Virus record (IMG/VR): IMGVR_UViG_3300005563_000102
Location: 1-23,420 of that record
Reading direction: 5' to 3' (one strand)
DNA length: 23,420 nucleotides
DNA from: a virus
Shown here: positions 278 to 19,350 of the stretch, one piece after another
Position numbering within the stretch: the first letter of the stretch is position 1
How the letters are laid out: each line of letters begins with the position of its first letter
Made by a program: the position numbers and the translations under genes
The notes under the pieces: model-generated
What the model saw: only the letters and a program-made list of their open reading frames with translations
Told to the model about the DNA's origin: nothing
The model's database searches: none

Positions 278-622
278 TTAGGCGGAGTTGCCGTTGCTCG
301 TGGCGAGGTTGCGGGAGCCCTTGGGGCGTCCCTTCGTTCCCGGTAGTTGGCCGAGTACTTCGTCCATCTTCCGGCCGTCCTGGGCTAGGGCATCGAAGTC
401 TGCTTGGTTGCAGATGATTTCCCAGCTCTGACCGCCACGAGTTTTGATTTGCAGGTGGGTCAGCTTCTCAGCCGATTCAAGCCCGGAAACCTCGGAAGCG
501 AGCGCGTCCAGTTGGACAGGTGTCTCGATCCGATCGTCCTTGCGGACTATGACGGTGACGAATGCGTCGTCTGCCGCCTCAGCCCCTGAGAGGTCGCTTA
601 CGCGCCTCGTCACGATACTCAT
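278..622 (-). CDS. Hypothetical protein with basic GRPKGSRN tail
   Basis: This 114-aa protein is not assigned to a family with confidence. It starts at ATG 622 with an AGAAGGG ribosome binding site 9 bases upstream. The N-terminal half (TRRVSDLSGAEAADDAFVTV) is predicted to alternate strands and loops, with a faint resemblance to the N-terminal fold of Lsr2 proteins (DDLDG-type opening, then strands). Residues about 97-105 (GRPKGSRN) form an AT-hook-like basic patch, suggesting DNA contact. It lies downstream of the HNH gene in the same direction with a 51-base gap and is followed by a terminator, so the two are probably co-transcribed. A small DNA-binding or host-modulating phage protein is the most that can be inferred. 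Confidence 0.7.
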   Translation of the reverse strand: MSIVTRRVSDLSGAEAADDAFVTVIVRKDDRIETPVQLDALASEVSGLESAEKLTHLQIKTRGGQSWEIICNQADFDALAQDGRKMDEVLGQLPGTKGRPKGSRNLATSNGNSA

Positions 623-673: not shown

Positions 674-1180
674 TTATAACACGTTTAGACATGCAAACTC
701 GCCATGAATAACCATCGCGAATTGGTCCCAAACATAGGCAGCCTCGATAGGATCGGAATATCCACCGAGGCTCGCGTTCTTACTACCAATCTTGATTTTG
801 GCGTAATATCTGCCGTTGTCTTTCTTGCGGTGTACGCCCTTATATCCGGTTAGGCTGTCGCAGCGGACTACCGAGTTATAGATATTTTCACTTCGCCGAG
901 CGGGGCGCAAGTTGGCGACTTGGTTGTTGAGCGGGTTCCTATCCCTATGATCGAGGTCGCACTTCTGGTCCGGGGTCAAGATGCCGTAGAGGTGGGCAAT
1001 TGTCCGATGCATAAAGAGCGCGGCCACATGACGCTCGGGGATATTCACGTGCACGGTACGTACCACATAGCCGAAGTTGCTCAATCCCCACGACCACTGG
1101 TTCAGCACATCGTAGAGGTTGTCATCAACTAGAGCGTACTTACCTTCGCCATTTATTCCGTGTAACTTGATTCGCTTCAT
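674..1180 (-). CDS. HNH endonuclease with AP2-like DNA-binding domain
   Basis: This 168-aa protein is built like free-standing phage homing endonucleases. Residues about 58-100 hold the HNH_3-type nuclease core (CDLDHRDRNPLNNQVANLR, His78 with Asn82/85/86). Residues about 110-165 hold an AP2-like domain (TGYKGVHRKK, YYAKIKIG, LGGYSDPIEAAYVWD). The start is placed at ATG 1180 because GGAAGGAG lies 5 bases upstream; a start nine codons earlier would put that site inside the gene. A TATAAA hexamer at 1216-1211 could be its -10 box. Such enzymes nick or cut DNA and spread themselves within phage populations. They are usually dispensable and are often found as insertions between phage genes. Here the gene does not interrupt a recognisable host gene. 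Confidence 0.9.
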   Translation of the reverse strand: MKRIKLHGINGEGKYALVDDNLYDVLNQWSWGLSNFGYVVRTVHVNIPERHVAALFMHRTIAHLYGILTPDQKCDLDHRDRNPLNNQVANLRPARRSENIYNSVVRCDSLTGYKGVHRKKDNGRYYAKIKIGSKNASLGGYSDPIEAAYVWDQFAMVIHGEFACLNVL

Positions 1181-1227
1181 GGGCACTCCTTCCGAGAAAG
1201 AGGCCATTGCTTTATAGTGGAGCTATG

Positions 1228-1432: not shown

Positions 1433-1750
1433 TTGGCACGCAAAGTCGCAGTCGAGTTGCTCGATGACCTCGACCAGTCGCCGGCCAGCCAGACAGTGAG
1501 CTTCGGCTACCAGGGGCGCGACTACGAGATTGACTTGAACGATAAGAACGCTGCTCGGTTCGAGAAGCTACTCAGCACTTACATCGAGGCCGGACGACGT
1601 GCTGGTGGCCGCAGGCGTGCCGCTGTCCAAACCAGCCAGTCCAACGGTGACGCCGCCAAGATTCGCGCCTGGGCTATCGAGAACGGCTACGAGGTAAGTG
1701 CGCGGGGGAGAGTAAGCGCCGAGATAGTGGCTGCATATAACGCCGCTTAG
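1433..1750 (+). CDS. lsr2: Lsr2-family nucleoid-associated protein
   Basis: This 105-aa protein matches Lsr2 along its length. The N-terminal dimerisation part opens with ARKVAVELLDDLD and continues with VSFGYQGRDYEIDLNDKNAARF. A basic linker follows (GRRAGGRRR, residues 54-62). The C-terminal DNA-binding domain carries the minor-groove RGR motif (residues 91-93 in SARGRVSAEIVAAY). The start is TTG at 1433, with GGAGG 6 bases upstream. Lsr2 bridges AT-rich DNA and silences foreign genes in actinobacteria, and phage-borne copies are known in actinophages. An element-encoded copy could control lysogeny, repress its own genes or interfere with host silencing. Its stop codon overlaps the stop of the convergent recombinase gene by 2 bases. 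About 170 bases of leader between the terminator at 1254 and the gene hold a small inverted repeat (GTAGC-N5-GCTAC, 1270-1284), possibly an operator. Confidence 0.95.
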   Translation: MARKVAVELLDDLDQSPASQTVSFGYQGRDYEIDLNDKNAARFEKLLSTYIEAGRRAGGRRRAAVQTSQSNGDAAKIRAWAIENGYEVSARGRVSAEIVAAYNAA

Positions 1751-3156
1751 GCAGCCCAGCGGATATCTACATCGGTCGGCCGGAAGCGGAAACCGTTCCA
1801 GAGCTGACTCTTTGGTAGATGTGCAGCGCCAGGGCTTGGCTTGAGTACGACGCGCTCGATCAGCAAGCCGATGAGCTGCCGTCGCCACGCCAGGTCGTTT
1901 GAGTCCCAGGCTTCTCTGATCGTTTGACCAACGGGCAGTAGGTTCATGCCTGCCTGCTGACGGGTGACCGCGCTGATTTGACGGTCGAGTGCCAGCAGCG
2001 CAGCGTCAGCAGCCGTCTTAGCTCGCGTCAGTTCGGTTTTCGTGAAGAGACCTGCCATGTAGTCATCCGTCAGTTCGTTGAGCCGCTGACGGCGCTTATT
2101 TCGTTCCAGAAGTAGCTCTTTGAGCCGGGTGTCATCTTTCTCGCCCTTGCCTAGCAGCTTGCCGAGGTCAGGCGTGTCCAGCCGGTACAGGATGGACTCT
2201 TTGACTAACAGATCGACTGGCGCAACCATGCGCAGGATTCGATAACAGTGGGTGCAGACGTAGCGAGGTTCGCCGTCGCCGCGCTGGCCTGATGACATGC
2301 GACCATCGCAACGCCCACAGAAGACATAGCCGGTCAGCAGATTGCGGCGCACCGGGCCGTGTTGCTTGTGCTCACTTCGGTGCCTGGCGATAGCCGCCTG
2401 AAGTGCTTCGTACTTCTCGACGGTGATAACGGCTGGCCAGGTCGCTGGGTAGTCGGTGCCGTTGTGCTCGCGGATGCCGGCGTAGCGTTTATGGAGCAGG
2501 AGATTTCTCAGCTTGAGCGAGTTCCACGTCTTGCCGTGCTGTGTGGTGATGCCCCGTTCGTTCCAGTCGATGGCAACACGGTTGAAGCTCCACCCACTTA
2601 TGACTCGATCCACGGCCTCGATGTAGAGGTCGGCTTCTGGCTGGCGGATGGCAACGCAAGCAGGCTCGTAGCCCCATGGCCGCTGGCCCCCTGACCAACC
2701 GCCGCTCTGAGCTTGCTGAGCCTTTGCCGCTTTGACGCGGGCTGTTGATGTCTCTGTTTCATACGAAGCCCAGGCGGCAAGCGTGCGCGCAACTGCTCGG
2801 CCACTTGGCGTCGTGAGGTCAAGATGACCTGCTTTGACGGTGTAGGTATCGACCTTGCCGCGCTCACAGATGTCTAGGTAATGCTCAAGCTCGGTTGGGC
2901 GTCGATGCAGACGGTCATGGCTCCACGCAATAACCACATCGACTTCACCGGCCTCGATGGCGTGAAGTAGCGCTTCATACTCAGGTCGGTGCTTGCCGCT
3001 AAAAGCCGAGACGTCATTCTCGACGTAGGTGGCGGTGACTAACCAGCCCTTGTCAGCTGCCAGGCGCTGACAGTCTTCTTGCTGGCGCTGAACACCAAGC
3101 CCAAGACCGGACTTGTCAGACGAGATTCGAGCATAAATTGCGGCTTTGACGTGCAT
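1747..3156 (-). CDS. Large serine recombinase (phage integrase)
   Basis: This 469-aa site-specific recombinase would integrate and, with a directionality factor, excise the element. The catalytic domain has Y8-x-R10-x-S12 (nucleophile Ser12) and the second-site arginines in DRLHRRP (82-87). The recombinase domain begins near GGQRPWGYEP (157-165). A zinc ribbon uses Cys280/283 and Cys301/304. A charged coiled-coil segment lies at about 345-405, as in phiC31- and Bxb1-type integrases. I place the start at ATG 3156 (MHVKAAIYARIS). Family members normally begin a few residues before the YARIS motif, and a good promoter (TTGGCA-17-GATAAT) ends 12 bases before this codon. The longer frame to 3249 adds 31 residues with no ribosome binding site. 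No Shine-Dalgarno precedes 3156 either, so translation is probably leaderless. The gene converges on lsr2 with overlapping stops. Confidence 0.95.
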   Translation of the reverse strand: MHVKAAIYARISSDKSGLGLGVQRQQEDCQRLAADKGWLVTATYVENDVSAFSGKHRPEYEALLHAIEAGEVDVVIAWSHDRLHRRPTELEHYLDICERGKVDTYTVKAGHLDLTTPSGRAVARTLAAWASYETETSTARVKAAKAQQAQSGGWSGGQRPWGYEPACVAIRQPEADLYIEAVDRVISGWSFNRVAIDWNERGITTQHGKTWNSLKLRNLLLHKRYAGIREHNGTDYPATWPAVITVEKYEALQAAIARHRSEHKQHGPVRRNLLTGYVFCGRCDGRMSSGQRGDGEPRYVCTHCYRILRMVAPVDLLVKESILYRLDTPDLGKLLGKGEKDDTRLKELLLERNKRRQRLNELTDDYMAGLFTKTELTRAKTAADAALLALDRQISAVTRQQAGMNLLPVGQTIREAWDSNDLAWRRQLIGLLIERVVLKPSPGAAHLPKSQLWNGFRFRPTDVDIRWAA

Positions 3157-3168
3157 AGATACAAGATC

Positions 3169-3197
3169 ATTATCCCTCATTGCAGGTACTTTGCCAA
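3169..3197 (-). promoter_or_regulatory. Promoter of the recombinase gene, near-leaderless
   Basis: The -35 box TTGGCA (3197-3192) and -10 box GATAAT (3174-3169) are separated by 17 bases, and each matches the sigma-70 consensus in five of six positions. The start codon at 3156 lies 12 bases past the -10 box, so the transcript would begin about 6 bases before or near ATG. The -35 box sits inside the candidate attP palindrome, so integration could change what drives this gene. Confidence 0.55.
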
Positions 3198-3230
3198 GCA
3201 TTTGACGAGGCGTCAAGCTCGTGGCGTACC
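3185..3230. other. Candidate phage attachment site (attP)
   Basis: A 46-bp imperfect palindrome lies directly upstream of the recombinase gene. The core is TTGACG-AGG-CGTCAA (3202-3216). GCCA (3193-3196) and TGGC (3222-3225) are symmetric about the same centre, and GGTAC/GTACC (3185-3189, 3226-3230) form outer arms offset by 3 bases. The size, the imperfect symmetry and the position next to the integrase gene fit attP sites of large serine integrases, whose crossover is a central dinucleotide. The call is inference from layout. The same symmetry could be an operator for the HTH protein at 3259-3627 or the recombinase promoter. Confidence 0.4.
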
Positions 3231-3258
3231 TACGGCCTCTGAGCGGCACGGAGACGGC

Positions 3259-3627
3259 CTACTGGGCTTCCTCCGGGGTGAAGTGCTTAGCCAGTTCTTC
3301 GCCCATGTGCTTCTGGTAGAGCTTGTAAGCGCCCTGTGGCGTCATCTCCAGCGCCTTGCCGATCTCGACCCACGTCATGGTGAGCTGCAAGGCCCGGTGG
3401 ATGAACAGGGCAACCACGATCTCAATCATGTCGCCCTTCCGCAGCAGCCCCAGCAGGCCCAGGGCGTGCCGGGTGTCGATCTGCTCTCTCTTGACCTCGG
3501 TCAGCTTGACGTCGTCAATCGGCCTCATCCCCTGAGACAGCTTTAGGACGTCAGTGAGGATCGTGATCGGCCGCCCCAGCTCTTCACGGATGAAGTCATC
3601 GAACGGCGGAACGTCTTGGCTAGGCAT
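3259..3627 (-). CDS. Helix-turn-helix DNA-binding protein, possible repressor
   Basis: This is a 122-aa protein. Residues 81-107 (QLTMTWVEIGKALEMTPQGAYKLYQKHM) form a helix-turn-helix of the sigma-region-4 or transposase-like kind (W-x-E-I-G-x-A-L-x-M-T/S-x-Q-x-A-Y). The preceding segment (about 45-80) is helical. It starts at ATG 3627 with no Shine-Dalgarno. It lies 102 bases upstream of the recombinase gene and is divergent from the plus-strand operon at 3750. The shared intergenic space carries a palindrome within a promoter (3677-3692). That layout is typical of a regulator that controls its divergent neighbour and perhaps the recombinase. A lysogeny-control role is inferred, and the protein is not a recognised CI or Cro homologue. 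Confidence 0.75.
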   Translation of the reverse strand: MPSQDVPPFDDFIREELGRPITILTDVLKLSQGMRPIDDVKLTEVKREQIDTRHALGLLGLLRKGDMIEIVVALFIHRALQLTMTWVEIGKALEMTPQGAYKLYQKHMGEELAKHFTPEEAQ

Positions 3628-3669: not shown

Positions 3670-3699
3670 TTGACTTCGTAACGACAGTTACGGTACGAA
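3670..3699 (+). promoter_or_regulatory. Early promoter with internal palindromic operator
   Basis: A -35 box TTGACT (3670-3675) and a -10-like TACGAA (3694-3699) are 18 bases apart. The spacer carries the perfect inverted repeat CGTAAC-GACA-GTTACG (3677-3692). A protein bound there would block RNA polymerase. It would drive the operon starting at 3750, about 45 bases downstream. The HTH protein encoded divergently is the obvious candidate ligand. Confidence 0.5.
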
Positions 3700-3749: not shown

Positions 3750-4037
3750 ATGCAGAACGAACTGATGGCCTACAACCGGGGTTACCTCGACGTCCCTCGC
3801 AACGAGAAGTCGGTCGCAGCTCGGGCCAAGAAGGTCTACGACGATGTGCGCGTCGAAGCGCTCAAGGTCAGCGGCACGATGATGCTGGGCGCTCACATCA
3901 TGGAAGAGACCAAGCAACTCGACGCCTACCGCCAGAAGCTCGCGGGAGACGACATCGGGCTCGACATGTTGCTCACCGAGATCGAAGCCGTCACCATCGT
4001 CAAGGCGCTCGAACTCCAGCGTCGGTGCTTCCGGTGA
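3750..4037 (+). CDS. Hypothetical early protein (95 aa)
   Basis: I do not recognise this protein. It starts at ATG 3750 with AGGAG 5 bases upstream. It is charged and predicted to be largely helical: a first half with SVAARAKKVYDDVRVEALKVSG, a hydrophobic stretch TMMLGAHIMEETKQL, and a C-terminal helix LLTEIEAVTIVKALELQRR. There is no signal peptide and no clear DNA-binding motif. It is the first gene of an operon that continues through two membrane mini-proteins to the VirD4-like ATPase. Its end overlaps the next start (GTGA at 4034-4037). A role as a soluble accessory factor of that module is possible. Confidence 0.75.
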   Translation: MQNELMAYNRGYLDVPRNEKSVAARAKKVYDDVRVEALKVSGTMMLGAHIMEETKQLDAYRQKLAGDDIGLDMLLTEIEAVTIVKALELQRRCFR

Positions 4038-4210
4038 TCGCGTTCATAATCGCCGGTTTCGTGGTCGGCGTCGCGATGCTGATCTTCGCAGCTGTCATGA
4101 GCCGACCGGCCAAGCGGCCAACCCCGAACCAAGCCATCTACGCGCTCTTCCGTGACGCTCACATGGCGATGGCGCGGGCAAGTGGGGCGAGTGGCTGGCG
4201 CGAGTGGTGA
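4034..4210 (+). CDS. Small membrane protein (58 aa)
   Basis: The start is placed at GTG 4034, whose GTGA overlaps the stop of the gene before it by 4 bases; GTG 4025 would add three residues. A single N-terminal membrane helix (MIAFIIAGFVVGVAMLIFAAVM, with the N terminus probably outside) is followed by a basic, soluble tail (SRPAKRPTPNQAIYALFRDAH). There is no family assignment. It is translationally coupled to both neighbours, which suggests these small proteins are made together and may assemble with the ATPase at the membrane. Confidence 0.6.
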   Translation: MIAFIIAGFVVGVAMLIFAAVMSRPAKRPTPNQAIYALFRDAHMAMARASGASGWREW

Positions 4211-4374
4211 GAACGCACCGGCCGTTGTGGGAGATCGTGGCCCTGATCTTTTTGTTCGCGGTCGTTGCCCAGGTCATCGTGGCGGAGGTGGCCCACCTCG
4301 TGCCGTACATAGTCGTCGGACTAATTCTGGCCGGCGCGGGAGGGATTGCGTATCGGAGAATGCGGAGGTGGTAA
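4207..4374 (+). CDS. Small two-helix membrane protein (55 aa)
   Basis: A GTG start at 4207 overlaps the previous stop by 4 bases (GTGA, 4207-4210). The frame reads RTHRPLWEI, then two hydrophobic helices (IVALIFLFAVVAQVIVAEV and LVPYIVVGLILAGAGGIAY), and ends with the basic tail RRMRRW. Positive residues at both ends suggest a helical hairpin with both ends in the cytoplasm. It has no recognised family. It sits 50 bases before the VirD4-like ATPase gene and is likely a membrane partner or scaffold for it. The antisense and alternate frames here are not convincing. Confidence 0.6.
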   Translation: MRTHRPLWEIVALIFLFAVVAQVIVAEVAHLVPYIVVGLILAGAGGIAYRRMRRW

Positions 4375-4423
4375 CGACAACTAAAGCAAGGGCGGTCATA
4401 GTGTTTAAGCTAAACTTGACATT

Positions 4424-6676
4424 ATGGCCGCTTTTGCTTTTTTACTGGCCGCAATCTTCGCTCTTGTTTCGACAGGCATTTTGATGGTGAAGCACCTGGA
4501 CCAAAAGCAGCGTGACCATAACCGCCGCACCTACATCCTGAGTTTTCCCAACGAACTAGCTGCCGAGAGCGTCACCGCCTGGATCAGGGCTATCTCAGGC
4601 ACGCTGCGCTATGGCTCGTCCCGTCTGGTCGGCGTTCCTACGGTGGGCTTCGAGTTGCTGGCGACTAGTGACGGGCTCAAGCACCGGCTGATGGTGCCGT
4701 GGCAGCACGCCGATTACGTGATCTCGCAGCTTCGCTCACTGGTGCCGGGTATCCGTGTCACGCCGGAAGAAAACTTTGAGCGGCCGAAGTGGACACACGC
4801 CGTTGAGGTTGGTCTGACTCACTCATCCCGGCAACTCCGTATCTATTCAGCGTCAGATATGGCCGCATCGCTGCTGGCTAGCGTGCAGGCGCTTGCCGAG
4901 GACGAGGTTGTGCTTGTGCAGTGGGTGATAACGCCTACGCCGCCGCTCCACAAGCCGGTCTACCGAGAAGCCAAGAGCCACCACCTCGGCGTCAAGATGG
5001 TGCTGTCGGGCAACTTGGCTAACCGCGATGAAGTGAATGACCGCAGAGGCAAACTCGAAGAGCCGAACGTCATGGCTGTGCTGCGCATTGCCTCAGTGGC
5101 CGGCACGCCGGTTAGAGCCGAGCACTTGGTCTACCGGGTGCGTGCGTCGCTGGCGAGTGCACGCAGCCCCGCATCACGGTTCGTGAAGCGGCTCGTGTTT
5201 AAGGCAGAGCTAGAGCAGCGCATCAACAACATTAGTGGCGTGGTGAACTTCCCGATCCAACTGTCTGCCCCTGAGATCGCGGCACTTATCGCATGGCCCA
5301 TCGGCAACCCGTTTGTGTCAGGGCTACCGCCGATGCTGGCGCGCCACTTGCCGCCTAGTGATCTCGTGCCGAAAGAGGGTCGGGTTATCGGGCGCTCCAA
5401 CATGCCCGGTAACGAGCGACCACTGGCAGTCGGCTACACCGAGGCGCTCAAGCACGTACATGTGGTTGGGCCTACTGGTGTCGGTAAGACAGTGTTACTG
5501 GCGAACATGATGCGGCAGGACATCGCCGCGGGCCACGGCGTCATCCTGATTGAAAACAAGGGTGACTTGTTCCACGCTGCCCTCGACTACATCCCGCCTG
5601 AGCGGATCAACGATGTCGTCGTCATGGACGTGAACGACGTCATGCGCCCGGTCGGCTTCAACATCTTGAATCAAGGCAACCCGGAAGTCGTCATTGATGA
5701 GCTGGCCATGCTGTTCGACAGCCTGTACTCGGAATCGAAGGCCGGAGTGTGGACGCGGGAGGTCATGTATCACGGCCTTAGGACGCTCGTAGCGGTACCT
5801 GGCTTGAGTTTTGTGGACTTAGCAGCACTTCTAGTGCCCTCGGCTGACGAAACGGCCTGGAGGGACTCTATTTTGCGTAGTTTGCATGACAAGGAGCTGC
5901 GCAAGTTCTGGCAGCGCTTTGAGAACCTGCCCCGCACATCGCAGGATCGCTACACGCAGCCGGTGATGGACCGCATCTGGCAACTGACGTCACGACCGAA
6001 GCTGCGCAACATCATCGGGCAAGCCACGTCGAGCTTCCAGATGGCCGATGTCGTAAGGGATAACAAGATCCTGCTGGTGAACCTGTCAGGCATCGAGCGT
6101 GAAGCAGCCAGCCTCACCGGCACGCTGCTGATGAACGCGCTCTGGCATGCGGTCAAGACAACTCCGTCGGATATGCCGAAGTTTCTCTACCTCGACGAGT
6201 TTCAGGACTTCCTGACATTGCCCACAGCAGACCCAGAAGACATGCTTGCGAAGGCCCGTGGATACAAGCTCGGAATGACGTTGGCCCACCAGCACCTCGG
6301 GCAGCTCACGCCTGTCATGAAGTCGGCCGTTATGGCCAACGCTCGCACCAAGGTTGTGTTTCAGACTTCGGCCGATGACGCACGCGCGATGGCGAGGGAG
6401 TTCGGTAAGTCAGTTGATGAGTACGACTTCCAACACCTCGGCCGCTACGAAGCAGTCGCACGAGTGGCAACACCAGATGGTGTCAGCCAGCCAATGACTT
6501 TAACGACGAGTGAGCCGGCCAAAGGCGAAGGTTGGGCCAAGCAAGCCAAGTATGTCTCGCGGACTACCTACGGCCGGCCCGTGCAGGAAGTCGAGGCCGA
6601 CATCGAGGCACGGCACTCTCACGAGAAGGTACCCAGGACTAAGCGGCCCAAGGTCGGCAGTGAGGACGGCTGGTAG
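4424..6676 (+). CDS. VirD4/TraG-like membrane-anchored ATPase
   Basis: This 750-aa protein belongs to the HerA/FtsK/VirD4 superfamily. An N-terminal membrane helix (residues 2-21) is followed by a 300-residue soluble region. The motor domain carries Walker A GPTGVGKT (349-356) and Walker B FLYLDEFQDF (Asp591-Glu592), plus the arginine-rich coupling-protein segment RHLPPSDLVPKEGRVIG and the ILIENKGDLF motif. Family members pump DNA or couple it to a type IV secretion channel during conjugation. Very similar layouts occur in actinobacterial integrative and conjugative elements. No relaxase or VirB4-like gene is visible, so function here could be conjugation with parts outside the window, or DNA handling by the phage. 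The start at 4424 lacks a Shine-Dalgarno but keeps the membrane helix. A palindrome GTTTA-AGC-TAAAC (4403-4415) lies just upstream. The stop codon abuts that of the convergent gene at 6677. Confidence 0.9.
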   Translation: MAAFAFLLAAIFALVSTGILMVKHLDQKQRDHNRRTYILSFPNELAAESVTAWIRAISGTLRYGSSRLVGVPTVGFELLATSDGLKHRLMVPWQHADYVISQLRSLVPGIRVTPEENFERPKWTHAVEVGLTHSSRQLRIYSASDMAASLLASVQALAEDEVVLVQWVITPTPPLHKPVYREAKSHHLGVKMVLSGNLANRDEVNDRRGKLEEPNVMAVLRIASVAGTPVRAEHLVYRVRASLASARSPASRFVKRLVFKAELEQRINNISGVVNFPIQLSAPEIAALIAWPIGNPFVSGLPPMLARHLPPSDLVPKEGRVIGRSNMPGNERPLAVGYTEALKHVHVVGPTGVGKTVLLANMMRQDIAAGHGVILIENKGDLFHAALDYIPPERINDVVVMDVNDVMRPVGFNILNQGNPEVVIDELAMLFDSLYSESKAGVWTREVMYHGLRTLVAVPGLSFVDLAALLVPSADETAWRDSILRSLHDKELRKFWQRFENLPRTSQDRYTQPVMDRIWQLTSRPKLRNIIGQATSSFQMADVVRDNKILLVNLSGIEREAASLTGTLLMNALWHAVKTTPSDMPKFLYLDEFQDFLTLPTADPEDMLAKARGYKLGMTLAHQHLGQLTPVMKSAVMANARTKVVFQTSADDARAMAREFGKSVDEYDFQHLGRYEAVARVATPDGVSQPMTLTTSEPAKGEGWAKQAKYVSRTTYGRPVQEVEADIEARHSHEKVPRTKRPKVGSEDGW

Positions 6677-6814
6677 CTAGAAGCCTGTACCGAAGTAGGC
6701 CATGAGGCCGACGATGAAGCCGATCAGCACGGCGATCCGGTCAGGTACGGCAATGTTGGCTATCAGGTAGGCAAGAACACCGAGCAGGATCGAAATGAAT
6801 AAGTGTCCGATCAT
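6677..6814 (-). CDS. Small membrane protein, holin-like (45 aa)
   Basis: ATG 6814 overlaps the stop of the preceding gene by one base (TAATG), a sign of translational coupling. The frame encodes MIGHLFISILLGVLAYLIANI, a short turn with Pro-Asp-Arg, then IAVLIGFIVGLMAYFGTGF: two membrane helices joined by a tight loop. It is the last gene of the lysis cassette, after the endolysin and a first holin-like protein. Very short hairpin proteins in this position act as holins or antiholins in other phages. That role is inferred from size, topology and context only. Its stop is adjacent to the stop of the convergent ATPase gene. Confidence 0.65.
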   Translation of the reverse strand: MIGHLFISILLGVLAYLIANIAVPDRIAVLIGFIVGLMAYFGTGF

Positions 6815-6999
6815 TACTTGTTCTTTGGTGCGAAGTACACCACCAGATGGCCAACGACGTAACCGACTACGCCCGTAACGATGACGCCAATGGCGGTCAC
6901 TGTTGGGGTGTCAGGTTGCCAGCCGAAGTGAGCTGCTTCTGCCACGATTAAGCCGACGATGCCGCCAGCGATTGCTTTACTGAAACTTGAAGCGTCCAT
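6814..6999 (-). CDS. Probable holin (61 aa)
   Basis: The start is ATG 6999, because AAGGAGG (7011-7005) lies 5 bases upstream; the longer frame to 7050 would put this site inside the gene. Two membrane segments (AIAGGIVGLIVAEAAHFG and VTAIGVIVTGVVGYVVGHLVVYF) are joined by a short polar loop (WQPDTPT), and the protein ends with KNK. This is the topology of class II phage holins, which form the membrane lesion that releases the endolysin. The ribosome binding site overlaps the endolysin stop codon, and the next gene is coupled at TAATG. The second helix is glycine-rich, as in many holins. Confidence 0.8.
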   Translation of the reverse strand: MDASSFSKAIAGGIVGLIVAEAAHFGWQPDTPTVTAIGVIVTGVVGYVVGHLVVYFAPKNK

Positions 7000-7009
7000 A
7001 TACACCTCC

Positions 7010-7258
7010 TTATTTGACTTGATATGTACCGGGCGACAGGACGGTTCCACCTGTGTTCCCGGCTTCCCACTGAGCGCGCTTAGCTATAAAGGCTTTCGCC
7101 TCGGGGGACTGGTACATGCGGACGATCTCTTGCAAGGCGTCGTTTCCAACGTGGTTCTTGTTCAAGTCGTCGTCCTGGTTGCCATTCAGGGCGTCAGAGC
7201 GACCGAGGATGCTGTAGGCCAGGATGCGAGCGCCCTCTAGTGTTAGTGCTTCTGCCAT
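7010..7258 (-). CDS. Internal in-frame product of the endolysin gene (cell-wall-binding part)
   Basis: ATG 7258 lies in frame inside the endolysin gene and has a near-perfect ribosome binding site, AAGGAGG (7270-7264), 5 bases upstream. This is the same strength as the site of the holin downstream. The product would be the 82-residue C-terminal domain alone (MAEALTLEGARILAYSILGRS ...). The site falls exactly at the boundary after the CHAP domain, where the full-length protein reads KEEV. Endolysins of several Gram-positive phages assemble one full-length chain with extra copies of an internally started binding domain. This arrangement is inferred here, not shown. Confidence 0.55.
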   Translation of the reverse strand: MAEALTLEGARILAYSILGRSDALNGNQDDDLNKNHVGNDALQEIVRMYQSPEAKAFIAKRAQWEAGNTGGTVLSPGTYQVK

Positions 7259-7684
7259 TACTTCCTCCTTAATTCTTAGTGCTCCGAGCAGGTAAGTGTC
7301 GGGGCGCTTGTATGTGTGCGGTAACGAGCCGTCAGGGTCAGCGTTCTGTTCAAGCACGATGCCGTTACCCAGGTAGATAGCAATGTGGCCCTCGACATAA
7401 ATGCCGTGGCCGTTGTAGATAACGATGTCGCCGGGCTGTTGCTGACCGGCGGGTATGCGGTCGAAGTACTTGACCATGTGCGGGTTGTTCTCAAAGTCGG
7501 TCCAGGCTTCTAGCGCCCAGCCATTAGGTCCAAGCGGGATAGCCCATGGCTCACGAGGGACGCCCATGTATTCGGCGAACTCTTCGGTTAGATCCCAACA
7601 CTGGTCGCCAAACTCGTGGTCTATATCAACGCCGATGCCTTGCGCAGCAGCCGCTAGTTTCGCTTGAACATATTGGTCGAGCAT
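7010..7684 (-). CDS. CHAP-domain endolysin
   Basis: This is a 224-aa peptidoglycan hydrolase. The N-terminal CHAP domain (about 15-140) carries Cys29 in DQCWDL, the PGDIVIYNG strand and His100 in GHIAIYLG, followed by the acidic/amide residues LEQNAD as the third catalytic position. CHAP enzymes act as amidases or cross-bridge endopeptidases. The C-terminal 80 residues (ALTLEGARILAYSILGRSDALNG ...) are of an unknown kind and probably bind the cell wall. There is no signal peptide, so export depends on the holins that follow. Met143 is preceded by AAGGAGG with 5-base spacing, so a second C-terminal product is likely; it is listed separately. The start at ATG 7684 lies 5 bases after the stop of the gene before it. 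Confidence 0.9.
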   Translation of the reverse strand: MLDQYVQAKLAAAAQGIGVDIDHEFGDQCWDLTEEFAEYMGVPREPWAIPLGPNGWALEAWTDFENNPHMVKYFDRIPAGQQQPGDIVIYNGHGIYVEGHIAIYLGNGIVLEQNADPDGSLPHTYKRPDTYLLGALRIKEEVMAEALTLEGARILAYSILGRSDALNGNQDDDLNKNHVGNDALQEIVRMYQSPEAKAFIAKRAQWEAGNTGGTVLSPGTYQVK

Positions 7685-7689
7685 TGTAG

Positions 7690-8439
7690 CTATAATCCTA
7701 AACCATTTATCGTCTGCTGCAAAACATTCAAGATTGGCGCTAATGTCTGCCCGACTAAGCCCGTGGGTGCGGGTGTCTGAGGATTTATGGGCTGCTGGGG
7801 CGCAGGAGAAGCCGTAGGAGCGCTCGTAGCGCCTTGGTCGATAGTTGCGGCCGGTTGTGCCACAGAAACGCTCAGAGGGCCGCTAGAAACGGTCTGGCGG
7901 CTTGGTGAAGTTGGGGGCAGCCGTAGCTGTAGTGAGTTGATCTCCTGTTGCAACTCCTTGATGAGCTTCTCTATCGAGGCCGGGGTGTCCGAGATGACAT
8001 ACGGCTTCGTCTCCCACACGAGCGTCTTGCGGTAGCCGTGGACGTAAAACTGGCCCTCGGTGTGGATGACGTAGGTCCCGGCTACCTGTGGCTGCTGTGA
8101 CGGCTTGAGCTGGATAGTTGTGCAGTTCGAGTTGCCCTTGGTGATGTTCACCTCGAAGGGCTCTTGCTTGACTGGCGAACGCCTGCTGCCGCTTGCGTTC
8201 ATGAGCAGGAAGTAGGTACGCGTGGCCGCAAAATGGATGTCTCCATAGTGGCGCGACCGGCAGACCGTTAGTGGCACCGGCTCACCGATGGTGGCATTGC
8301 CAGCTTGCACGTAGTAGTAGTTCAGGAACCATTTGGCTGGCACGAAATCGTAGTAAGCGTGTTGAATTATGACTGTCAGGACCGCAAAGACCACGAATCC
8401 AAGGAAGGCCCGCCAGAGCGCCCGCAAGAAGTGCTTCAC
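7690..8439 (-). CDS. Membrane-anchored exported protein of the lysis region (249 aa)
   Basis: The start is GTG 8439: its GTGA overlaps the previous stop by 4 bases and GGAGG lies 6 bases upstream. A basic N terminus and one membrane helix (FLGFVVFAVLTVIIQ, about residues 11-26) put the rest outside the cytoplasm. A compact domain of strands with two cysteines (TVCRSRH and NSNCTTIQ), which might form a disulphide, spans about 40-155. A short coiled coil (SIEKLIKELQQEINSLQLRL) and a Pro/Ser/Thr/Gln-rich tail follow. I do not recognise the family. Its place between a holin-like protein and the endolysin suggests a lysis accessory or a superinfection or envelope-interaction protein. A spanin role is possible but not supported by sequence. 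Confidence 0.75.
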   Translation of the reverse strand: MKHFLRALWRAFLGFVVFAVLTVIIQHAYYDFVPAKWFLNYYYVQAGNATIGEPVPLTVCRSRHYGDIHFAATRTYFLLMNASGSRRSPVKQEPFEVNITKGNSNCTTIQLKPSQQPQVAGTYVIHTEGQFYVHGYRKTLVWETKPYVISDTPASIEKLIKELQQEINSLQLRLPPTSPSRQTVSSGPLSVSVAQPAATIDQGATSAPTASPAPQQPINPQTPAPTGLVGQTLAPILNVLQQTINGLGL

Positions 8440-8663
8440 GAGCGGCCTCCACCGAGCCACCTGGATATGTCGTCGAACTTGGCACCGAGGCTAGCGCCGA
8501 TTAGACCGATGTAGATATAGCTCGGCACGTTGTTAGGGCTGTTGAGGTCGAGGATCGACAACACGACGATGGCAATAATCGCCATAGCAGAGACGAGATT
8601 GGCACCACGCGCTGGCACCACGCGCTGGTTTTTCTTAGCGCCCTTTTGGGTGCGAGACGCCAT
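8436..8663 (-). CDS. Small membrane protein, holin-like (75 aa)
   Basis: The start is placed at ATG 8663, 9 bases after an AAGGA site; a TTG two codons earlier is possible. A basic cytoplasmic N terminus (ASRTQKGAKKNQR) precedes two membrane helices (SAMAIIAIVVLSILDL and VPSYIYIGLIGASLGA) and a short polar tail (KFDDISRWLGGG). The topology and the position at the head of the lysis genes fit a holin. A 13-bp exact tandem duplication (8601-8626) lies in the N-terminal part and leaves the current frame intact through both helices. The stop overlaps the start of the next gene (GTGA). Confidence 0.7.
   Translation of the reverse strand: MASRTQKGAKKNQRVVPARGANLVSAMAIIAIVVLSILDLNSPNNVPSYIYIGLIGASLGAKFDDISRWLGGGRS
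8601..8626. repeat. 13-bp exact tandem duplication
   Basis: GGCACCACGCGCT occurs twice head to tail. It lies in the N-terminal, pre-membrane part of the 75-aa membrane protein, where it encodes the VVPARGA region. Because 13 is not a multiple of three, gain or loss of one copy would shift the frame and remove both membrane helices. It may be a slippage-prone on/off site or simply a fixed duplication. Confidence 0.8.
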
Positions 8664-8760
8664 AGTCAATAATCCTTCTCATGCAAAAGCCGAGTACAAA
8701 GCCTATGGCGAATCCTAAAAACATACCGTCCATAACCTTCATTGTGAGCGGCCTACGCAT
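8635..8760 (-). CDS. Possible membrane mini-protein (41 aa)
   Basis: An open frame from ATG 8760 (or ATG 8742) encodes MRRPLTMKVMDG, one membrane helix (MFLGFAIGFVLGFC), then a basic MRRIIDYG segment. It overlaps the start of the next gene by 29 bases and contains that gene's ribosome binding site, as coupled phage mini-genes often do. It follows the fibre-like gene ending at 8789. There is no clear ribosome binding site of its own, so the call rests on the hydrophobic profile and the context. Confidence 0.35.
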   Translation of the reverse strand: MRRPLTMKVMDGMFLGFAIGFVLGFCMRRIIDYGVSHPKGR

Positions 8761-8788
8761 GAGCGGCGGTTAGGTTTGTTACACATCA

Positions 8789-9400
8789 TCAGGCAGCCTC
8801 GTAGCTTCCTGTAATCATGAACTGGTCATTGGTCGTCCATGTAGTCGGGAAGGTAGCGGTAATAAGTCCGACGTGAACGCTACCGTCAGATTGCGCCAGC
8901 AAGGCGCTTGTCGTGCTGTTGAAAAGGATGGTGCCCGCATACCGCGAGGCGCTGGCGTCGTTGTAGTTCACAACAGCATCCATCGGGTCATTAGCAACAT
9001 ATCCAGTGGTCGCGTCAGCGTTGGCACCAACGGGAAGCGAGAAGCTCGGCCCAGCGCTGGTGATGGCAGTCGTGCTGCCCCAGGTAAATTTGAGGCGGAA
9101 GTGGACAGTCTTACCGATCTGCACAAACTTGGCGTAATTCAGTGTGCCGTTACCAACGGTCAAGTTGGACCATGTTGGTGTCCAGGACGCCCAGACCCAC
9201 GAGCCAGACGTGCTACCTTGCAGCTTATTCGGGGTGACAGCGCTATCCGCGATGGCGGCAGTGACGACTGCGTTGGCTGCTAAGTTAGCTGAGTCGATTG
9301 CGCCGTTAAGCACCGCTGCGAGCTGGTTGATCGGATTATTGATGTCCGAGGCTTCAATGGTGTCGTTCGGTGATGACTGTTGAGGTGTGACTATTGGCAT
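8789..9400 (-). CDS. Phage tail fibre or appendage protein (203 aa)
   Basis: The N-terminal third is helical and repetitive (NNPINQLAAVLNGAIDSANLAANAVVTAAIADSAVTPNKL), like the trimerising stem of tail fibres. The rest is a beta-rich domain (SWTPTWSNLTVGNGTLNYAKFVQIGKTVHFRLKFTWG ... ITGSYEAA), typical of fibre tip domains in many phages. It starts at ATG 9400, two bases after the stop of the ejection protein gene, with AGGAGG 11 bases upstream. It probably contributes to host recognition, either alone or with the 926-aa fibre. Confidence 0.75.
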   Translation of the reverse strand: MPIVTPQQSSPNDTIEASDINNPINQLAAVLNGAIDSANLAANAVVTAAIADSAVTPNKLQGSTSGSWVWASWTPTWSNLTVGNGTLNYAKFVQIGKTVHFRLKFTWGSTTAITSAGPSFSLPVGANADATTGYVANDPMDAVVNYNDASASRYAGTILFNSTTSALLAQSDGSVHVGLITATFPTTWTTNDQFMITGSYEAA

Positions 9401-9402
9401 CC

Positions 9403-11343
9403 TTAGGCGCCTCCTAATGCGCTAACTAGATCGGTGGCGCTCGCGGCCGGTTGCGGGTTGGCAAAACTGCTCAGCAAACTGTGCAGGCGGTCAAGTTTGG
9501 AAGCGGCTGACTGGGCTGAATCGGCCGGCCCAGGAAGTAGTGACTTGTAAAGTTTCTCTTCGCTGGCGCTGATCGCTGCACCTGAACGTAGGCGGGAAAT
9601 AACGTCGATAATGTTTTGCTTAGACGCTTCGTAATCAGTTGTGCCGGTCAGGCGTCGTGCGAGCCCACCGCCCGGGATAGCGTCCTTCGCGGCAATACTT
9701 GGGTTCTGACCAATCATCTGTCGAAGCGCCTGGATGTCAGAGAGACCGCTGTTCGCGTTGTTGGCGAGCTGTTGCTGAGTAGCATTGAGCTGCTGAGGTG
9801 CATTCGCTTTTGCGGCAGACTGTTGCAAGCCGTTTATGGCGCTAGCGAGGCTGACGTAATCGGTGACGTCTTTCATGTTGCCACCGTTGGCGATTATCTT
9901 CTCAATGTTCGTTTCAACGTTGGCGGGATCGAATGGACTATTACTTGACATTTGGTCAGGAGTTTGAGACAACGGGTCCATGGTTGGATTTATATTACTT
10001 GTGCTGGTGGTATCAGCACTGCTATTTATACTCGTTGATTGATCGAGCGGCGGCAGAGCCGAGCCAGCGGCATTCACAACGCCGAGTGGCAGCGACCGCG
10101 TAGCGATGGCTTTAGCGCCGAATGGATCGGCCGTCTTATCGGTGACTTTGCTTGTAAGGTCTTGTAACGCTTGACCGCCCTTAGATTTGGCAGCCTGAGC
10201 TGTGTCGTTAGCCAGTAGCCGGCCGATGAGTCCACCGCTGGCACTCTGGCTCTGGTCAGATACCGCTTTGGCACCGCCGACGAGGAACTCTTTGGCGTTC
10301 ATGAGGTTCGAGTACGACTTATTCAGGTCAGCTACGCCGGGTGCCAGCTTGTCCGTGGTGTCTGACAGGACGTTGCGGAAGGTGCGAGCTGCGAGCTGAT
10401 CGGCTGCCATCTTGGCGTCAGGGTTGCGGTTGAAGGCGATGACTTGGTTGTCGAGGCCGCGGCGGAAATTGACGATGCCCTTAACGTCTTTGACTTGGTT
10501 CTCGAAGTTGGCGGCGAGGTTAGCTGCGCTCTTGCGCACAGCGTCAGTCACACCGGGCTGTTGCTCGATCGTGTGTAAGAAGTCACCGGAGATTGCTTTG
10601 CTAGCAGCGGGCGTCAGGTTGGCGTCGTGTGCTGTCAGGGTCGTGTCGATTTGCTTGCCACGGTTGGCCAGCGTGTCCTCAACCTGCTTGAGACGCGTCT
10701 CAGGCGCACCGGCACTGATGCCTTCGTCCCGTAGGTTCTGCGCGATCTTGGCGCTGTCGTAGAAGCCAAGAGGTGGCTGACCCGAGACTTTCTCACCGAT
10801 GCCGAAGCCGCCAGCGCGAGCTTCCATCTGAGCGCCCTTGTTGCCGAGTACGTCTGCGGCTTTCGAGATGATGCCCGGAGCAGTTGCAGCTTCGCCGCCT
10901 GCGTTCAGGGCGTCAGCAAGTGATGTGCCGCCTTTGATTGCACCTGTGGCGGCGGATGCGCCCTTGAGTAAGCGAAGTGGACCAGCGGCAAGAACGCCTT
11001 GCTCTAGCGCCTGGCCACCAACTCCGCTACCGAGGCTGTTGCCTTCGATCTTGTTCTCAACGACTTTGCCGCCTGCGCCTCCAAGGGCACCGCCTAGCAG
11101 GGCTCCAAGAAGGCCGCCGACTGCTGTACCCACGCCGGGTAAGACTGCACTACCGGCAAGCGCGCCACCGGCTGCACCACCTGAGATGCCGCCACCGATG
11201 CCGCCAGCGGTTGGTAGTAGATGCGATAAGAAGCCACCCTTTGGCTTGGCAACAGCAGCGGTCATAGGTTGAGCCGCGGCTTGCTGAGCGTAGAACTGAT
11301 GGGCGTTGGCATTTAACTGCGCGAACTCGTTGGGGTCAATCAT
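9403..11343 (-). CDS. Internal virion / DNA-ejection protein with glycine zipper (646 aa)
   Basis: Residues about 36-95 form a long glycine-zipper membrane segment (GGIGGGISGGAAGGALAG, GVGTAVGGLLGALLGGALGG). The rest is helical and Ala/Gln/Asn-rich with coiled-coil character (for example NLAANFENQVKDVKGIVNFRRGLDNQV). Large proteins of this kind, placed after the tail nozzle gene in short-tailed phages, are packed in the capsid core. They leave before the DNA to build a channel through the envelope, as T7 gp14-16 and P22 gp7/16/20 do. No transglycosylase motif is visible. Its ATG overlaps the previous stop by one base (TAATG at 11345-11341), so it is coupled to the other ejection protein gene. 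Confidence 0.75.
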   Translation of the reverse strand: MIDPNEFAQLNANAHQFYAQQAAAQPMTAAVAKPKGGFLSHLLPTAGGIGGGISGGAAGGALAGSAVLPGVGTAVGGLLGALLGGALGGAGGKVVENKIEGNSLGSGVGGQALEQGVLAAGPLRLLKGASAATGAIKGGTSLADALNAGGEAATAPGIISKAADVLGNKGAQMEARAGGFGIGEKVSGQPPLGFYDSAKIAQNLRDEGISAGAPETRLKQVEDTLANRGKQIDTTLTAHDANLTPAASKAISGDFLHTIEQQPGVTDAVRKSAANLAANFENQVKDVKGIVNFRRGLDNQVIAFNRNPDAKMAADQLAARTFRNVLSDTTDKLAPGVADLNKSYSNLMNAKEFLVGGAKAVSDQSQSASGGLIGRLLANDTAQAAKSKGGQALQDLTSKVTDKTADPFGAKAIATRSLPLGVVNAAGSALPPLDQSTSINSSADTTSTSNINPTMDPLSQTPDQMSSNSPFDPANVETNIEKIIANGGNMKDVTDYVSLASAINGLQQSAAKANAPQQLNATQQQLANNANSGLSDIQALRQMIGQNPSIAAKDAIPGGGLARRLTGTTDYEASKQNIIDVISRLRSGAAISASEEKLYKSLLPGPADSAQSAASKLDRLHSLLSSFANPQPAASATDLVSALGGA

Positions 11344-12107
11344 TAGAATGTGATCCTTTGAGTGGGCTGCGCTACGCCGACGGATAGTCCACCGCCGCCA
11401 CCGGTCGGCATGTAGGACAATGCTTTCTGGAGTAGGGGACCATAGCCTGACTGCGATTTGTACATGTTTATGAGATCAAGCTTGTACTTGTCATATAAGT
11501 TTCCGTTGTTTGCACTCTTCGTTATGGCGGTTAGGGTGTTATTGATTAGTGCCGGGTCATTCGTCTTGAGCAGCGACACAATGGCGTTAGCGGCATTCTG
11601 CTTCTGGCTGCCAAGTGAGGCGTACGCATCTGGCGCGGTTTGCTGTCCACCGCCAAACAGTGAGCCCAGTTGTGACGCCGAAGCGGCTGCGGCATCTCTA
11701 GCAGCTTGAGCGGCCCGATCGGCCTGCTCGCGCTGGAAGTCCTGCTGTTCTTGCTGTTGCTGAACGCCAAGGGCTGTCTTTTGCTGGTCAATACCGATGT
11801 TGTTGAGGGCGTCAAGCAGTGATGTCTTTTGCGAGTTCTGAGAAGCGCGGACGTTGGCTACTGCGGGTAGGAAAGTGCCAGCTGTGTACTTGGCTTGTTC
11901 ACTTAGCGGGATGCCAGAGAAGCCAATGCCTCGGTCGCGGGCACCGTTCGTGATGTCGTTAAAGGCTTGTGATTGCTGCCCTTGCAGCCCTTGAATCTGG
12001 GCATCGGCCGCTGCTGGGAGAGCATCAACTTGCTGCTGTATTAGCTGGCGGCTCGGCGCATAGGCTGCGTCGAGTGAAGAAACGATGTCGCTGAGGCTCT
12101 GTGCCAA
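11343..12107 (-). CDS. Internal virion / ejection protein (254 aa)
   Basis: The start is set at TTG 12107 (MAQSLSDIVSSLDAAYAPSR). The longer reading from TTG 12140 would translate the conserved promoter leader. The protein is helical, rich in Gln and Ala (QQQQEQQDFQREQADRAAQAARDAAAASASQ), and has a central coiled coil and a glycine-rich C-terminal region (PTGGGGGLSVGV). Small Gln/Ala-rich proteins in this position are ejection or internal core proteins in podoviruses. It is the first gene after the promoter at 12149-12124, has no Shine-Dalgarno, and is coupled to the 646-aa protein at its stop. Confidence 0.7.
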   Translation of the reverse strand: MAQSLSDIVSSLDAAYAPSRQLIQQQVDALPAAADAQIQGLQGQQSQAFNDITNGARDRGIGFSGIPLSEQAKYTAGTFLPAVANVRASQNSQKTSLLDALNNIGIDQQKTALGVQQQQEQQDFQREQADRAAQAARDAAAASASQLGSLFGGGQQTAPDAYASLGSQKQNAANAIVSLLKTNDPALINNTLTAITKSANNGNLYDKYKLDLINMYKSQSGYGPLLQKALSYMPTGGGGGLSVGVAQPTQRITF

Positions 12108-12123
12108 CTGAATTGACCGACAC

Positions 12124-12149
12124 CTACCCTGATACCACAAATCATATCA
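12124..12149 (-). promoter_or_regulatory. Late promoter and conserved leader for the ejection/lysis unit
   Basis: Extended -10 element TGA-TATGAT (12149-12141) with no recognisable -35 box. Eleven bases later comes GGGTAG as part of GGTATCAGGGTAG, ending at 12124. The start codon TTG follows 16 bases further. The same layout occurs at 15466-15440 and 19342-19317. Confidence 0.65.
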
Positions 12150-12170
12150 TTAAGCACCGAAAAATAGAAT

Positions 12171-12758
12171 TTAATTTGCTGTCTCTTGCAGAAGGTAGAC
12201 CGTGGCGCTATTGGTGAGCGTGCTAGAACCAGCCATTGCTAGCTGGCCCGAGAAGGTGATATTTGTAGCATCCACCCCAACCTGAAAAAGACCGAACGGC
12301 TGCAAAGTGGGAGAGGATGTTCCATAAACCAAAAAGGGGTTGGGGCCGTTGGTGTTGCTTATCGGGCTCAGCGCTGCGATTGCAGCGTCAATGGTGATGA
12401 ATGCCGCGTATGCAGGCAGGAAAGCGAACCCATGCGCCTGCGTCACACTCGCCGTCTTGCTGCCTGTGCCAGTTAGCGTAATAGTCAGTGTGAGGCTCAC
12501 CTTTTTAACTATTTTGAATACGTCTTGTCCGCTATCGAAAGTTAGCTGATCGGCTGTAGCGGTAGTGACGTCTACGCCACTTTTGGATGCCTTAATTCTT
12601 CCAGAAGTCGCGTCAATGAAGATACGGTGCGTGCCCGTGTCGTCGTCGTAGAGCATTTTGACGGTTTCGTTGTCTAACTCAGCGAAGTTCTTGTTGATTA
12701 TCGCAAGCTGCTGAGCTGGGTCTGTTCCTGGCGCAATCGGAGTAAATCTGTTTGGCAT
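12171..12758 (-). CDS. Virion protein, tail-associated (195 aa)
   Basis: The start is placed at ATG 12758 (MPNRFTPIAPGTDPAQQLAIINKNFAELDNE), one base after the stop of the nozzle gene; the longer frame to 12884 only re-reads that gene. The segment INKNFAELDNETVKMLYDD is a helix of the kind that starts many fibre-like and tail-appendage proteins. The remainder is beta-rich and Thr/Ser-rich (FKIVKKVSLTLTITLTGTGSKTASVTQAHGF ... ATVYLLQETAN). A structural protein attached to the tail is likely, perhaps a fibre adaptor or tip. The exact role is not known. Confidence 0.7.
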   Translation of the reverse strand: MPNRFTPIAPGTDPAQQLAIINKNFAELDNETVKMLYDDDTGTHRIFIDATSGRIKASKSGVDVTTATADQLTFDSGQDVFKIVKKVSLTLTITLTGTGSKTASVTQAHGFAFLPAYAAFITIDAAIAALSPISNTNGPNPFLVYGTSSPTLQPFGLFQVGVDATNITFSGQLAMAGSSTLTNSATVYLLQETAN

Positions 12759-12759
12759 C

Positions 12760-14763: not shown

Positions 14764-15425
14764 GCTCGGCTATTCCCCACACGCATCGTGGCTTTGCCGG
14801 CCTTCGCTGGGCCAACAGACACATTGGAGAATCTCAGCAGCATGCTTTCGAGGCCGTCTTCAAATTGCTGCTCGTAGGTCGCGGCGATGTCATGATTTCC
14901 ACGGTATTTCTCAGATCTAAACTCGGCGTATAGCTCAAGCAGCTCACGGAAGGAGTACGGAACCGTTGGCACGTCGCTCGATTGAGTTAGCTCGGCTGGC
15001 GTGCGGTAGTAGCGCTGAACAAAGGTGTACGCCTTGTCTACTGGCCGGTCAAAGTAGATCTGATCGCCGAACTCTGTCCAGGCGGAAGGTATGCCAGCGG
15101 TGTTCACGCTCGGGACTGGGTACCGATCAAAGAACTCGCGGTAAGGCACGAAAGTATTTTTGGTCAGTCGAAACCGCGTGCCGGTTGAAGCAGGGTCGTA
15201 CACCACGCCCTCGATCGTGGCCTGGTGGTCAGTTTGTTGGGCGTAGAGGTACTGCCCGATAGTCAGAGCGCCCGAGACTGCCTTCTCGCAAAACTTAAAC
15301 TTGTGCGTATTGAAAATCGCAAGCTGACCGTAGTTGAGGTAGCGGAGGATGCGTGTCGATGAGAATGACGGGTCTTGCAGGTCATCTTGAACAGCCGATG
15401 TTATATCGCCGACGTTATAGGCCAA
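14760..15425 (-). CDS. Head-to-tail adaptor protein (T7 gp11 / P22 gp4-like)
   Basis: This 221-aa protein has a helical N-terminal part (VGDITSAVQDDLQDPSFSSTRILRYLNYGQLAIFN), typical of adaptors that dock to the portal ring, then a beta-rich middle and a helical end (SFRELLELYAEFRSEKYRGNHDIAATYEQQFEDGL). The length matches podovirus tail tube A / adaptor proteins. It starts with TTG at 15425 and has no Shine-Dalgarno; the promoter and leader at 15466-15440 end 14 bases before it. The next gene, the nozzle, is fused by a 4-base overlap, as adaptor and nozzle genes usually are in short-tailed phages. Confidence 0.8.
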   Translation of the reverse strand: MAYNVGDITSAVQDDLQDPSFSSTRILRYLNYGQLAIFNTHKFKFCEKAVSGALTIGQYLYAQQTDHQATIEGVVYDPASTGTRFRLTKNTFVPYREFFDRYPVPSVNTAGIPSAWTEFGDQIYFDRPVDKAYTFVQRYYRTPAELTQSSDVPTVPYSFRELLELYAEFRSEKYRGNHDIAATYEQQFEDGLESMLLRFSNVSVGPAKAGKATMRVGNSRA

Positions 15426-15439
15426 GATTTTGTCTACAG

Positions 15440-15466: not shown

Positions 15467-15477
15467 TGTTGGCTTGA

Positions 15478-18621: not shown

Positions 18622-18639
18622 TGGATTGGCTTCTCATTG

Positions 18640-19301: not shown

Positions 19302-19316
19302 GTATGGCGCTTACGC

Positions 19317-19342: not shown

Positions 19343-19350
19343 AGTTAGTG

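Follow-up and report, generated by a model that had tools for sequence, protein, structure and literature searches.

The DNA considered here, called the window in the following, is the whole IMG/VR virus record IMGVR_UViG_3300005563_000102, a linear fragment of 23,420 bases, which carries an operon of three small genes and a VirD4/TrwB-like ATPase next to a large serine integrase, an Lsr2 silencer and podovirus-type virion genes. On balance, the window appears to be part of a temperate actinophage with the coupling-protein half of a MOBC-type mobilization module, whose relaxase half is probably encoded in a genome region that the record does not cover. A mobilization module of this kind seems to be established in temperate actinophages, and its gene content suggests that it serves DNA transfer. 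The first-pass annotation of the window had proposed a hybrid element moving both as virions and by DNA transfer. For such a hybrid mobilizable phage, sequences and structural models support the parts and their conservation, not yet the function: a relaxase is encoded in every long relative and the module recurs in capsid-less elements resembling integrative and mobilizable elements (IMEs), from which a role in transfer would be expected.

The coupling-protein ATPase and its operon

The operon comprises the following features, with one transmembrane (TM) segment predicted in the ATPase itself.

3750-6676, plus strand: ATPase operon, three small genes and the gene of the 750-residue ATPase
3750-4037, plus strand: first gene, soluble protein of 95 residues (clusters V10/F12), with family members at the equivalent position in G001, G014 and the chromosomal elements
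4034-4210, plus strand: mini membrane protein 1, a single N-terminal TM segment (hydropathy 2.9) and a charged tail, with equivalents in relatives
4204-4374, plus strand: mini membrane protein 2, 56 residues, a probable two-TM hairpin with a basic end, with short equivalents directly upstream of the ATPase in relatives
4424-6676, plus strand: VirD4/TrwB-like coupling-protein ATPase, 750 residues, one N-terminal TM segment (assigned by Pfam, PHROG, profile and structure)
5468-5491, plus strand: Walker A motif GPTGVGKT of the ATPase, residues 349-356
6194-6199, plus strand: D-E codons of the Walker B motif LYLDE, D591-E592

The earlier description of a membrane-anchored VirD4/TraG-like motor gave both Walker motifs exactly, and the hydrophobic N-terminal segment is present. 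All Pfam matches of the ATPase lie above the cut-off (TrwB_AAD_bind 3e-8, T4SS-DNA_transf 5e-6, TraG-D_C 1e-5), it matches PHROG 5156 at 3e-40, and the key residues of the Walker motifs are invariant in an alignment of 14 sequences. The sequence by itself found no match among the PDB sequences; a profile of the 14 sequences compared with solved structures matched TrwB and DotL. An AlphaFold model (mean pLDDT 81) was used for the suggested structural comparison with the VirD4 family, in which TrwB is the best match (Z 29.1, 373 residues, 3.9 Å), followed by DndH, VirB4 and DotL (Z 26-27), HerA (18-24) and FtsK (about 17). By its sequence and its predicted fold the ATPase is a VirD4/TrwB-type coupling protein, although the fold alone does not prove a coupling activity. 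Distant relatives are encoded by other phages, SPO1 gp27.4 and phage G gp156, at 21-22% identity.

A match to phrog_2666, labelled 'terminase large subunit', raised the packaging motor as a candidate role. This is unlikely, since G002 and G015 have a separate gene of 454-460 residues at the terminase position; it adjoins the portal gene and matches phrog_2472, a family of unknown function, and its identity as terminase is unproven.

The three small genes, two of them for membrane mini-proteins, had been described as chained by overlaps, which is borne out: the overlaps read GTGA and GTGGTGA, and strong hydrophobic segments are present in the products of the second and third gene. This operon pattern is kept in seven phage records and five chromosomal elements, with the recurring order of a soluble gene, a one-TM mini protein, a two-TM mini protein (52-64 residues) and the ATPase. 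It is not without variation, as there are some insertions and the gene order differs in G016. Mini membrane protein 2 also has a tblastn match in the chromosomal locus L008. Beside the ATPase, a gene of the V25 family (about 175-185 residues, function unknown) is inserted in G001 (10108-10629), G016 (60765-61313) and G323 (61570-62124).

In G013, G014, G015, G017 and most chromosomal elements the ATPase has no TM segment of its own. Because the two-TM mini gene is kept there, the two-TM mini protein is proposed as a separate anchor, and it is a candidate for the membrane anchor or partner of the ATPase. For type IV coupling proteins (T4CPs) without a TM domain, a membrane-protein partner has been postulated (PMC7434980).

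The MOBC relaxase of the related phages

The ATPase was detected by scanning viral contigs, which gave 16 virus records with the window among them. Among the first eight of these, six encode a PF13814 (Replic_Relax) protein above the cut-off, as does G314, and the two without it are the shortest, the window (23 kb) and G013 (17 kb). All 14 ATPase records longer than 35 kb also encode this MOBC relaxase, and together with one chromosomal prophage these 14 virus records hold both genes. The PF13814 family has been scored as MOBC relaxase superfamily (PMC5357655).

In the reverse direction, a scan with the phage relaxase found 18 virus records, 15 of them new; it was run with three sequences, as a nine-sequence alignment was too divergent. 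Seven of the 15 also hold the ATPase. The other eight comprise five records without an integrase and three in which the integrase lies within about 1 kb of the record end. The gene tables of G324 and G328 show that these records stop before the ATPase locus, and in G320, G322, G326, G329, G331 and G332 the locus would likewise run off the record.

The phage PF13814 proteins are full length if the start codon is placed further upstream than in the mechanical call, and the residues D140, E159 and K173 are invariant in all 18 aligned sequences. The predicted structure (pLDDT 91) displays an N-terminal MarR-like winged helix and a C-terminal domain matching the restriction endonuclease BstEII (Z 9.0, 127 residues). 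FokI and Can2 also appear in Foldseek, where the matches are weak (best E 2.5e-3) and indecisive by themselves; the assignment as nuclease rests on VIA-align, topology, the conserved residues and Pfam. In PHROGs the match is to 'replication initiation by nicking' (2.5e-16). On model and alignment, the proteins of the relatives combine a winged helix with a PD-(D/E)XK nuclease fold carrying conserved acidic and lysine residues. MOBC relaxases are related to PD-(D/E)XK nucleases, and a winged helix is present in TraX (PMC12857230).

A tblastn search with the phage relaxase against 50,697 deposited phage records gave no match, nor did the DNA of G314 against plasmids. A correlation between the divergence of ATPase and relaxase (Mantel test) was first significant; it hinges on the near-identical G327 and G330 and is not clearly above overall relatedness, and it is not used here.

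Distribution among phages and capsid-less elements

Two of the ATPase genomes are closed, with end repeats of 127 bases: G001 (39.2 kb) and G015 (37.0 kb). Conservation of the operon beside the same capsid module had been named as a check, and the ATPase is indeed found together with the podovirus-type virion genes of the window in G002, G015 and G314. A different virion gene set, which we take to be of siphovirus type, is present in G001, G016, G017, G319, G321, G323, G327, G330 and G333. These phages frequently encode ArdC-like proteins for antirestriction, a kind of protein known from conjugative plasmids (G001 37036-37833, G002 25999-26796, G015 19400-20200, G016 21442-22254), and one is also encoded by G317, which has no ATPase.

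Four sisters with the same virion genes, G313, G315, G316 and G317, have neither the ATPase nor an integrase, and none of the four has an intact relaxase. The module thus tracks lysogeny and not the virion. Furthermore, G315 (107-base repeat) and G316 (49-base repeat) are closed, and the module is therefore dispensable for the multiplication of that virion lineage. In G317 (L071), a partial PF13814 match with an internal stop at 1748-1963 is possibly a decayed relaxase.

Outside of virus records, the operon followed by PF13814 is present in chromosomes of Streptomyces, Lentzea, Allokutzneria and Amycolatopsis, with a serine recombinase nearby and Lsr2 in several of them. In three further actinobacterial genomes ATPase, relaxase and serine recombinase lie within about 8 kb. 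Capsid, portal and terminase families were all absent when the Allokutzneria element was scanned with Pfam. Many chromosomal elements have two ATPase-relaxase pairs in convergent orientation, the second of which is often next to a tyrosine integrase; two such diverged pairs (types A and B) together with a serine recombinase are seen in L007, L008, L012, L022-L028 and L128, and the type-B pair is often found beside a MerR/HTH_17-like gene and the tyrosine integrase.

In a tree of the ATPases, the 14 phage proteins group with the type-A chromosomal ATPases, and type-B and other chromosomal copies form a separate, well supported group. The podovirus-type carriers (window, G015, G314) fall into different clades among the siphovirus-type carriers, which indicates that module and virion have reassorted.

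The 4.5-Mb genome G638, from the order of Lentzea, contains a prophage (C4, loci L124-L127) with integrase, virion genes, Lsr2, the ATPase operon and an intact relaxase. The prophage interrupts a host gene, identified from its sequence as comM/yifB, at the codons for FLDE of the Walker B motif. The Allokutzneria element (L130, L023) is inserted in the same host gene at the same FLDE motif, and yifB fragments flank G333 (L105, L107) and G328 (L119). The junctions in G638 have only about six bases in common (TCGTCG), so that the attachment core is not fixed. Phages and capsid-less elements share the integrase type, the silencer, the mobilization genes and, in these cases, the integration site. 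The serine integrases and the several relatives integrated in comM/yifB speak against the phage-plasmid that the first-pass annotation had considered.

Gene content of the window

The motor had been placed between a serine recombinase and a full set of short-tailed phage genes. Its position is right, the set is not full: the record is a linear fragment that terminates within the portal gene, and a terminase is absent from its gene content. The remaining features are as follows.

278-622, minus strand: protein of 114 residues (cluster F4, eight members in eight loci), which accompanies the serine recombinase in chromosomal elements
674-1207, minus strand: HNH endonuclease with a C-terminal AP2-like domain, adjoining the Lsr2 gene; possibly a homing nuclease
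1433-1750, plus strand: Lsr2 xenogeneic silencer (Pfam Lsr2 3e-25, DNA-binding domain 6e-16)
1747-3249, minus strand: large serine integrase (Pfam Resolvase 1e-29, Recombinase 1e-13; PHROG integrase 5e-97), which may start at 3156 instead of 3249
3203-3217: TTGACG-AGG-CGTCAA, a perfect inverted repeat directly upstream of where the integrase probably starts; candidate phage attachment site (attP)
3259-3627, minus strand: small protein, divergent from the ATPase operon, with a weak match to the helix-turn-helix family phrog_686 (E 0.07); candidate regulator
3675-3699: inverted repeat in the divergent intergenic region, TTCGTAACG/CGGTACGAA with inner CGTAAC-4-GTTACG, found by repeat search; candidate operator
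6677-7684, minus strand: lysis genes for two small membrane proteins, which are holin candidates, and for an endolysin of CHAP/NlpC type (PHROGs 3e-7)
7690-23420, minus strand: podovirus-type tail and head module, syntenic with G002 and G015, the truncated portal gene last

As to the candidate attP at 3203-3217, the 11-mer TTTGACGAGGC recurs upstream of the integrase of G013, and CGACGA is also found in the codons at which comM is interrupted. The 114-residue protein belongs to an uncharacterised family and has a C-terminal motif of RGRPxG type, resembling a minor-groove binder; a Pfam search with one member of the family gave zero matches. The internal virion protein is 70% identical between the window and G002, and its nearest deposited relative is from a metagenomic 'Podoviridae sp.'. 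A scan with the major head protein of the window found no relatives, and a scan for promoters and terminators was not above chance.

Proposed mechanism and alternative explanations

As a mechanism, it is proposed that the serine integrase would excise the prophage as a circle, and that the winged-helix/PD-(D/E)XK relaxase would bind and nick a phage-encoded origin of transfer (oriT). Next, the nicked DNA would be docked at the membrane by the VirD4-like ATPase, which is presumably hexameric and attached there through its own TM segment, the two-TM mini protein or both. The ATPase would pump one strand into the neighbouring cell, using a mating channel provided by a helper conjugative element. 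In the lysogen, silencing of the module would be the task of Lsr2 and the divergent regulator. The relaxase of this phage, the nicking, the oriT, the docking and the transfer are predicted here. Helper-driven transfer is proposed because of the gene set of IME class 8, defined by a serine integrase, a MOBC relaxase and VirD4 (PMC5357655), and because of the precedent of the MobB/MobC pair of CloDF13, which is mobilized via the type IV secretion system (T4SS) of another element (PMC7431656). The class 8 gene set, without VirB4, is complete in the relatives of the window, and the window itself is without the relaxase part.

Several results weigh against this proposal. The PF13814 relaxase is not found in the 23-kb fragment, in the phages its gene is not adjacent to the ATPase gene, and the protein might start replication instead. 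A repeat search upstream of seven relaxase genes found nothing oriT-like in common. No AAA_10 match over the cut-off, indicating a VirB4-like ATPase, is present in 14 phage records, and none was found anywhere in the G638 host genome. The phages would therefore be mobilizable and not self-conjugative, and the helper channel would have to come from elsewhere. Near the chromosomal ATPase copies VirB4 was not found either, but nine of ten genomes holding such copies have VirB4-like genes elsewhere, which makes helpers plausible in such hosts. Thus, from the suggested search for relaxase, VirB4 and oriT, only the relaxase emerged, and this in the relatives.

The lack of VirB4 in the phages, in the G638 host and near the chromosomal copies would also fit a transfer in which the ATPase and the small membrane proteins, which always accompany the motor, form their own channel between actinobacterial cells in contact, without a T4SS helper and in the manner of the FtsK-like TraB of Streptomyces plasmids and of actinomycete integrative and conjugative elements (AICEs), the relaxase freeing or resolving the DNA. 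AICEs indeed transfer with one motor protein (PMC3218068). Such self-sufficient transfer is nevertheless quite improbable, since the motor resembles TrwB/VirD4 (Z 29.1) and not FtsK (Z about 17), and double-stranded DNA is moved by TraB systems with no relaxase involved (PMC3218068), while the motor described here is accompanied by one of MOBC type. A role in replication or segregation, in which the PF13814 protein nicks to start replication, the ATPase moves DNA at the membrane and nothing passes between cells, is unlikely, albeit one to be taken seriously. PHROGs labels relatives as 'replication initiation by nicking' and 'replication initiation protein', and the early region of the closed G015 showed no recognisable helicase, primase or polymerase. 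On the other hand, the closed sisters G315 and G316 have neither gene, so that this lineage multiplies without them; the presence of the two genes follows the integrase and not the virion, and the same pair is kept in elements that have no capsid.

The first-pass annotation had also mentioned DNA entry or exclusion as a new task of the motor, for which positive support did not appear. A prophage HerA/VirD4-like ATPase blocking the entry of other phages or plasmids would be in line with the PADLOC matches to mad8 (2.8e-17, residues 343-664, better than any Pfam T4CP model) and HerA (1e-6), and HerA-type defence ATPases are among the structural matches. The mad8 match in turn suggests, at the level of sequence, that the MADS defence ATPase is a VirD4 relative. 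No MADS or HerA partner gene lies next to the ATPase, the small genes and the relaxase are without a significant PADLOC match, TrwB outscores every HerA structurally and the constant partner of the ATPase is the MOBC relaxase; defence or superinfection exclusion is accordingly very unlikely. A conjugative fragment joined to a phage contig by assembly, which would fit a linear metagenomic fragment and had been named as a possible refutation, is ruled out for practical purposes by the same arrangement in the closed G001 and G015, in 16 virus records and in one chromosomal prophage.

Relation to known systems and meaning

Helper-driven mobilization, the explanation favoured here, places the phages close to the IMEs of class 8 known from streptococci (PMC5357655), which have the same mobility trio, no mating channel of their own and integrate into the chromosome. 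In contrast, these IMEs are without virion genes, and the phages have Actinomycetota hosts, relaxase and ATPase genes that lie apart and small membrane genes preceding the ATPase. The CloDF13 MobB/MobC pair likewise combines a VirD4-type coupling protein with a MOBC relaxase of restriction-nuclease fold (PMC7431656, PMC12857230). Both CloDF13 and pAD1 modules differ in being located on plasmids and in a coupling protein with its own two-TM anchor, whereas several relatives of the window have a TM-less ATPase and a two-TM mini protein. In the pAD1 module, of TraW/TraX type, TraW is the VirD4-type coupling protein paired with a MOBC relaxase.

SPO1 and phage G are large myovirus-type phages of Bacillus. 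Their proteins gp27.4 and gp156 are VirD4-like and phage-encoded as well, but the gene context differs. Phage-plasmids such as P1 with mob or oriT (PMC10879196) are also phage-derived and have met conjugation genes; here, the virion genes are kept and the element integrates. The AICEs of pSAM2 type (PMC3218068) are integrating elements of Actinomycetota with one DNA motor, yet this motor is of FtsK/TraB type without a relaxase, in contrast to the TrwB-type motor and MOBC relaxase found here. In the open-licence literature searched, the prophages of 2406 actinobacterial genomes have been surveyed (PMC10023795), and the terms relaxase, VirD4, conjugat- and type IV do not occur in the main text of that survey. 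The toolkit for mobilization is known; what is new here is that phages have it built in.

Usually, phages are regarded as one route of transfer and mobilizable elements as another. In the present case, integrating phages that differ in their virions have retained the pair of genes that is the hallmark of a mobilizable element. We tentatively suggest, as a wider view, that widespread temperate actinophages have two horizontal routes, one by virions and one by mobilization with a coupling protein, partly split in that a mini gene of its own encodes the two-TM anchor, and a MOBC relaxase, and that one lineage may interconvert between phage and mobilizable element. If the module is functional, a prophage could be passed on while the donor survives, also to cells that its virions are unable to infect, and the conversion of phages into mobilizable elements and vice versa could be put to a concrete test.

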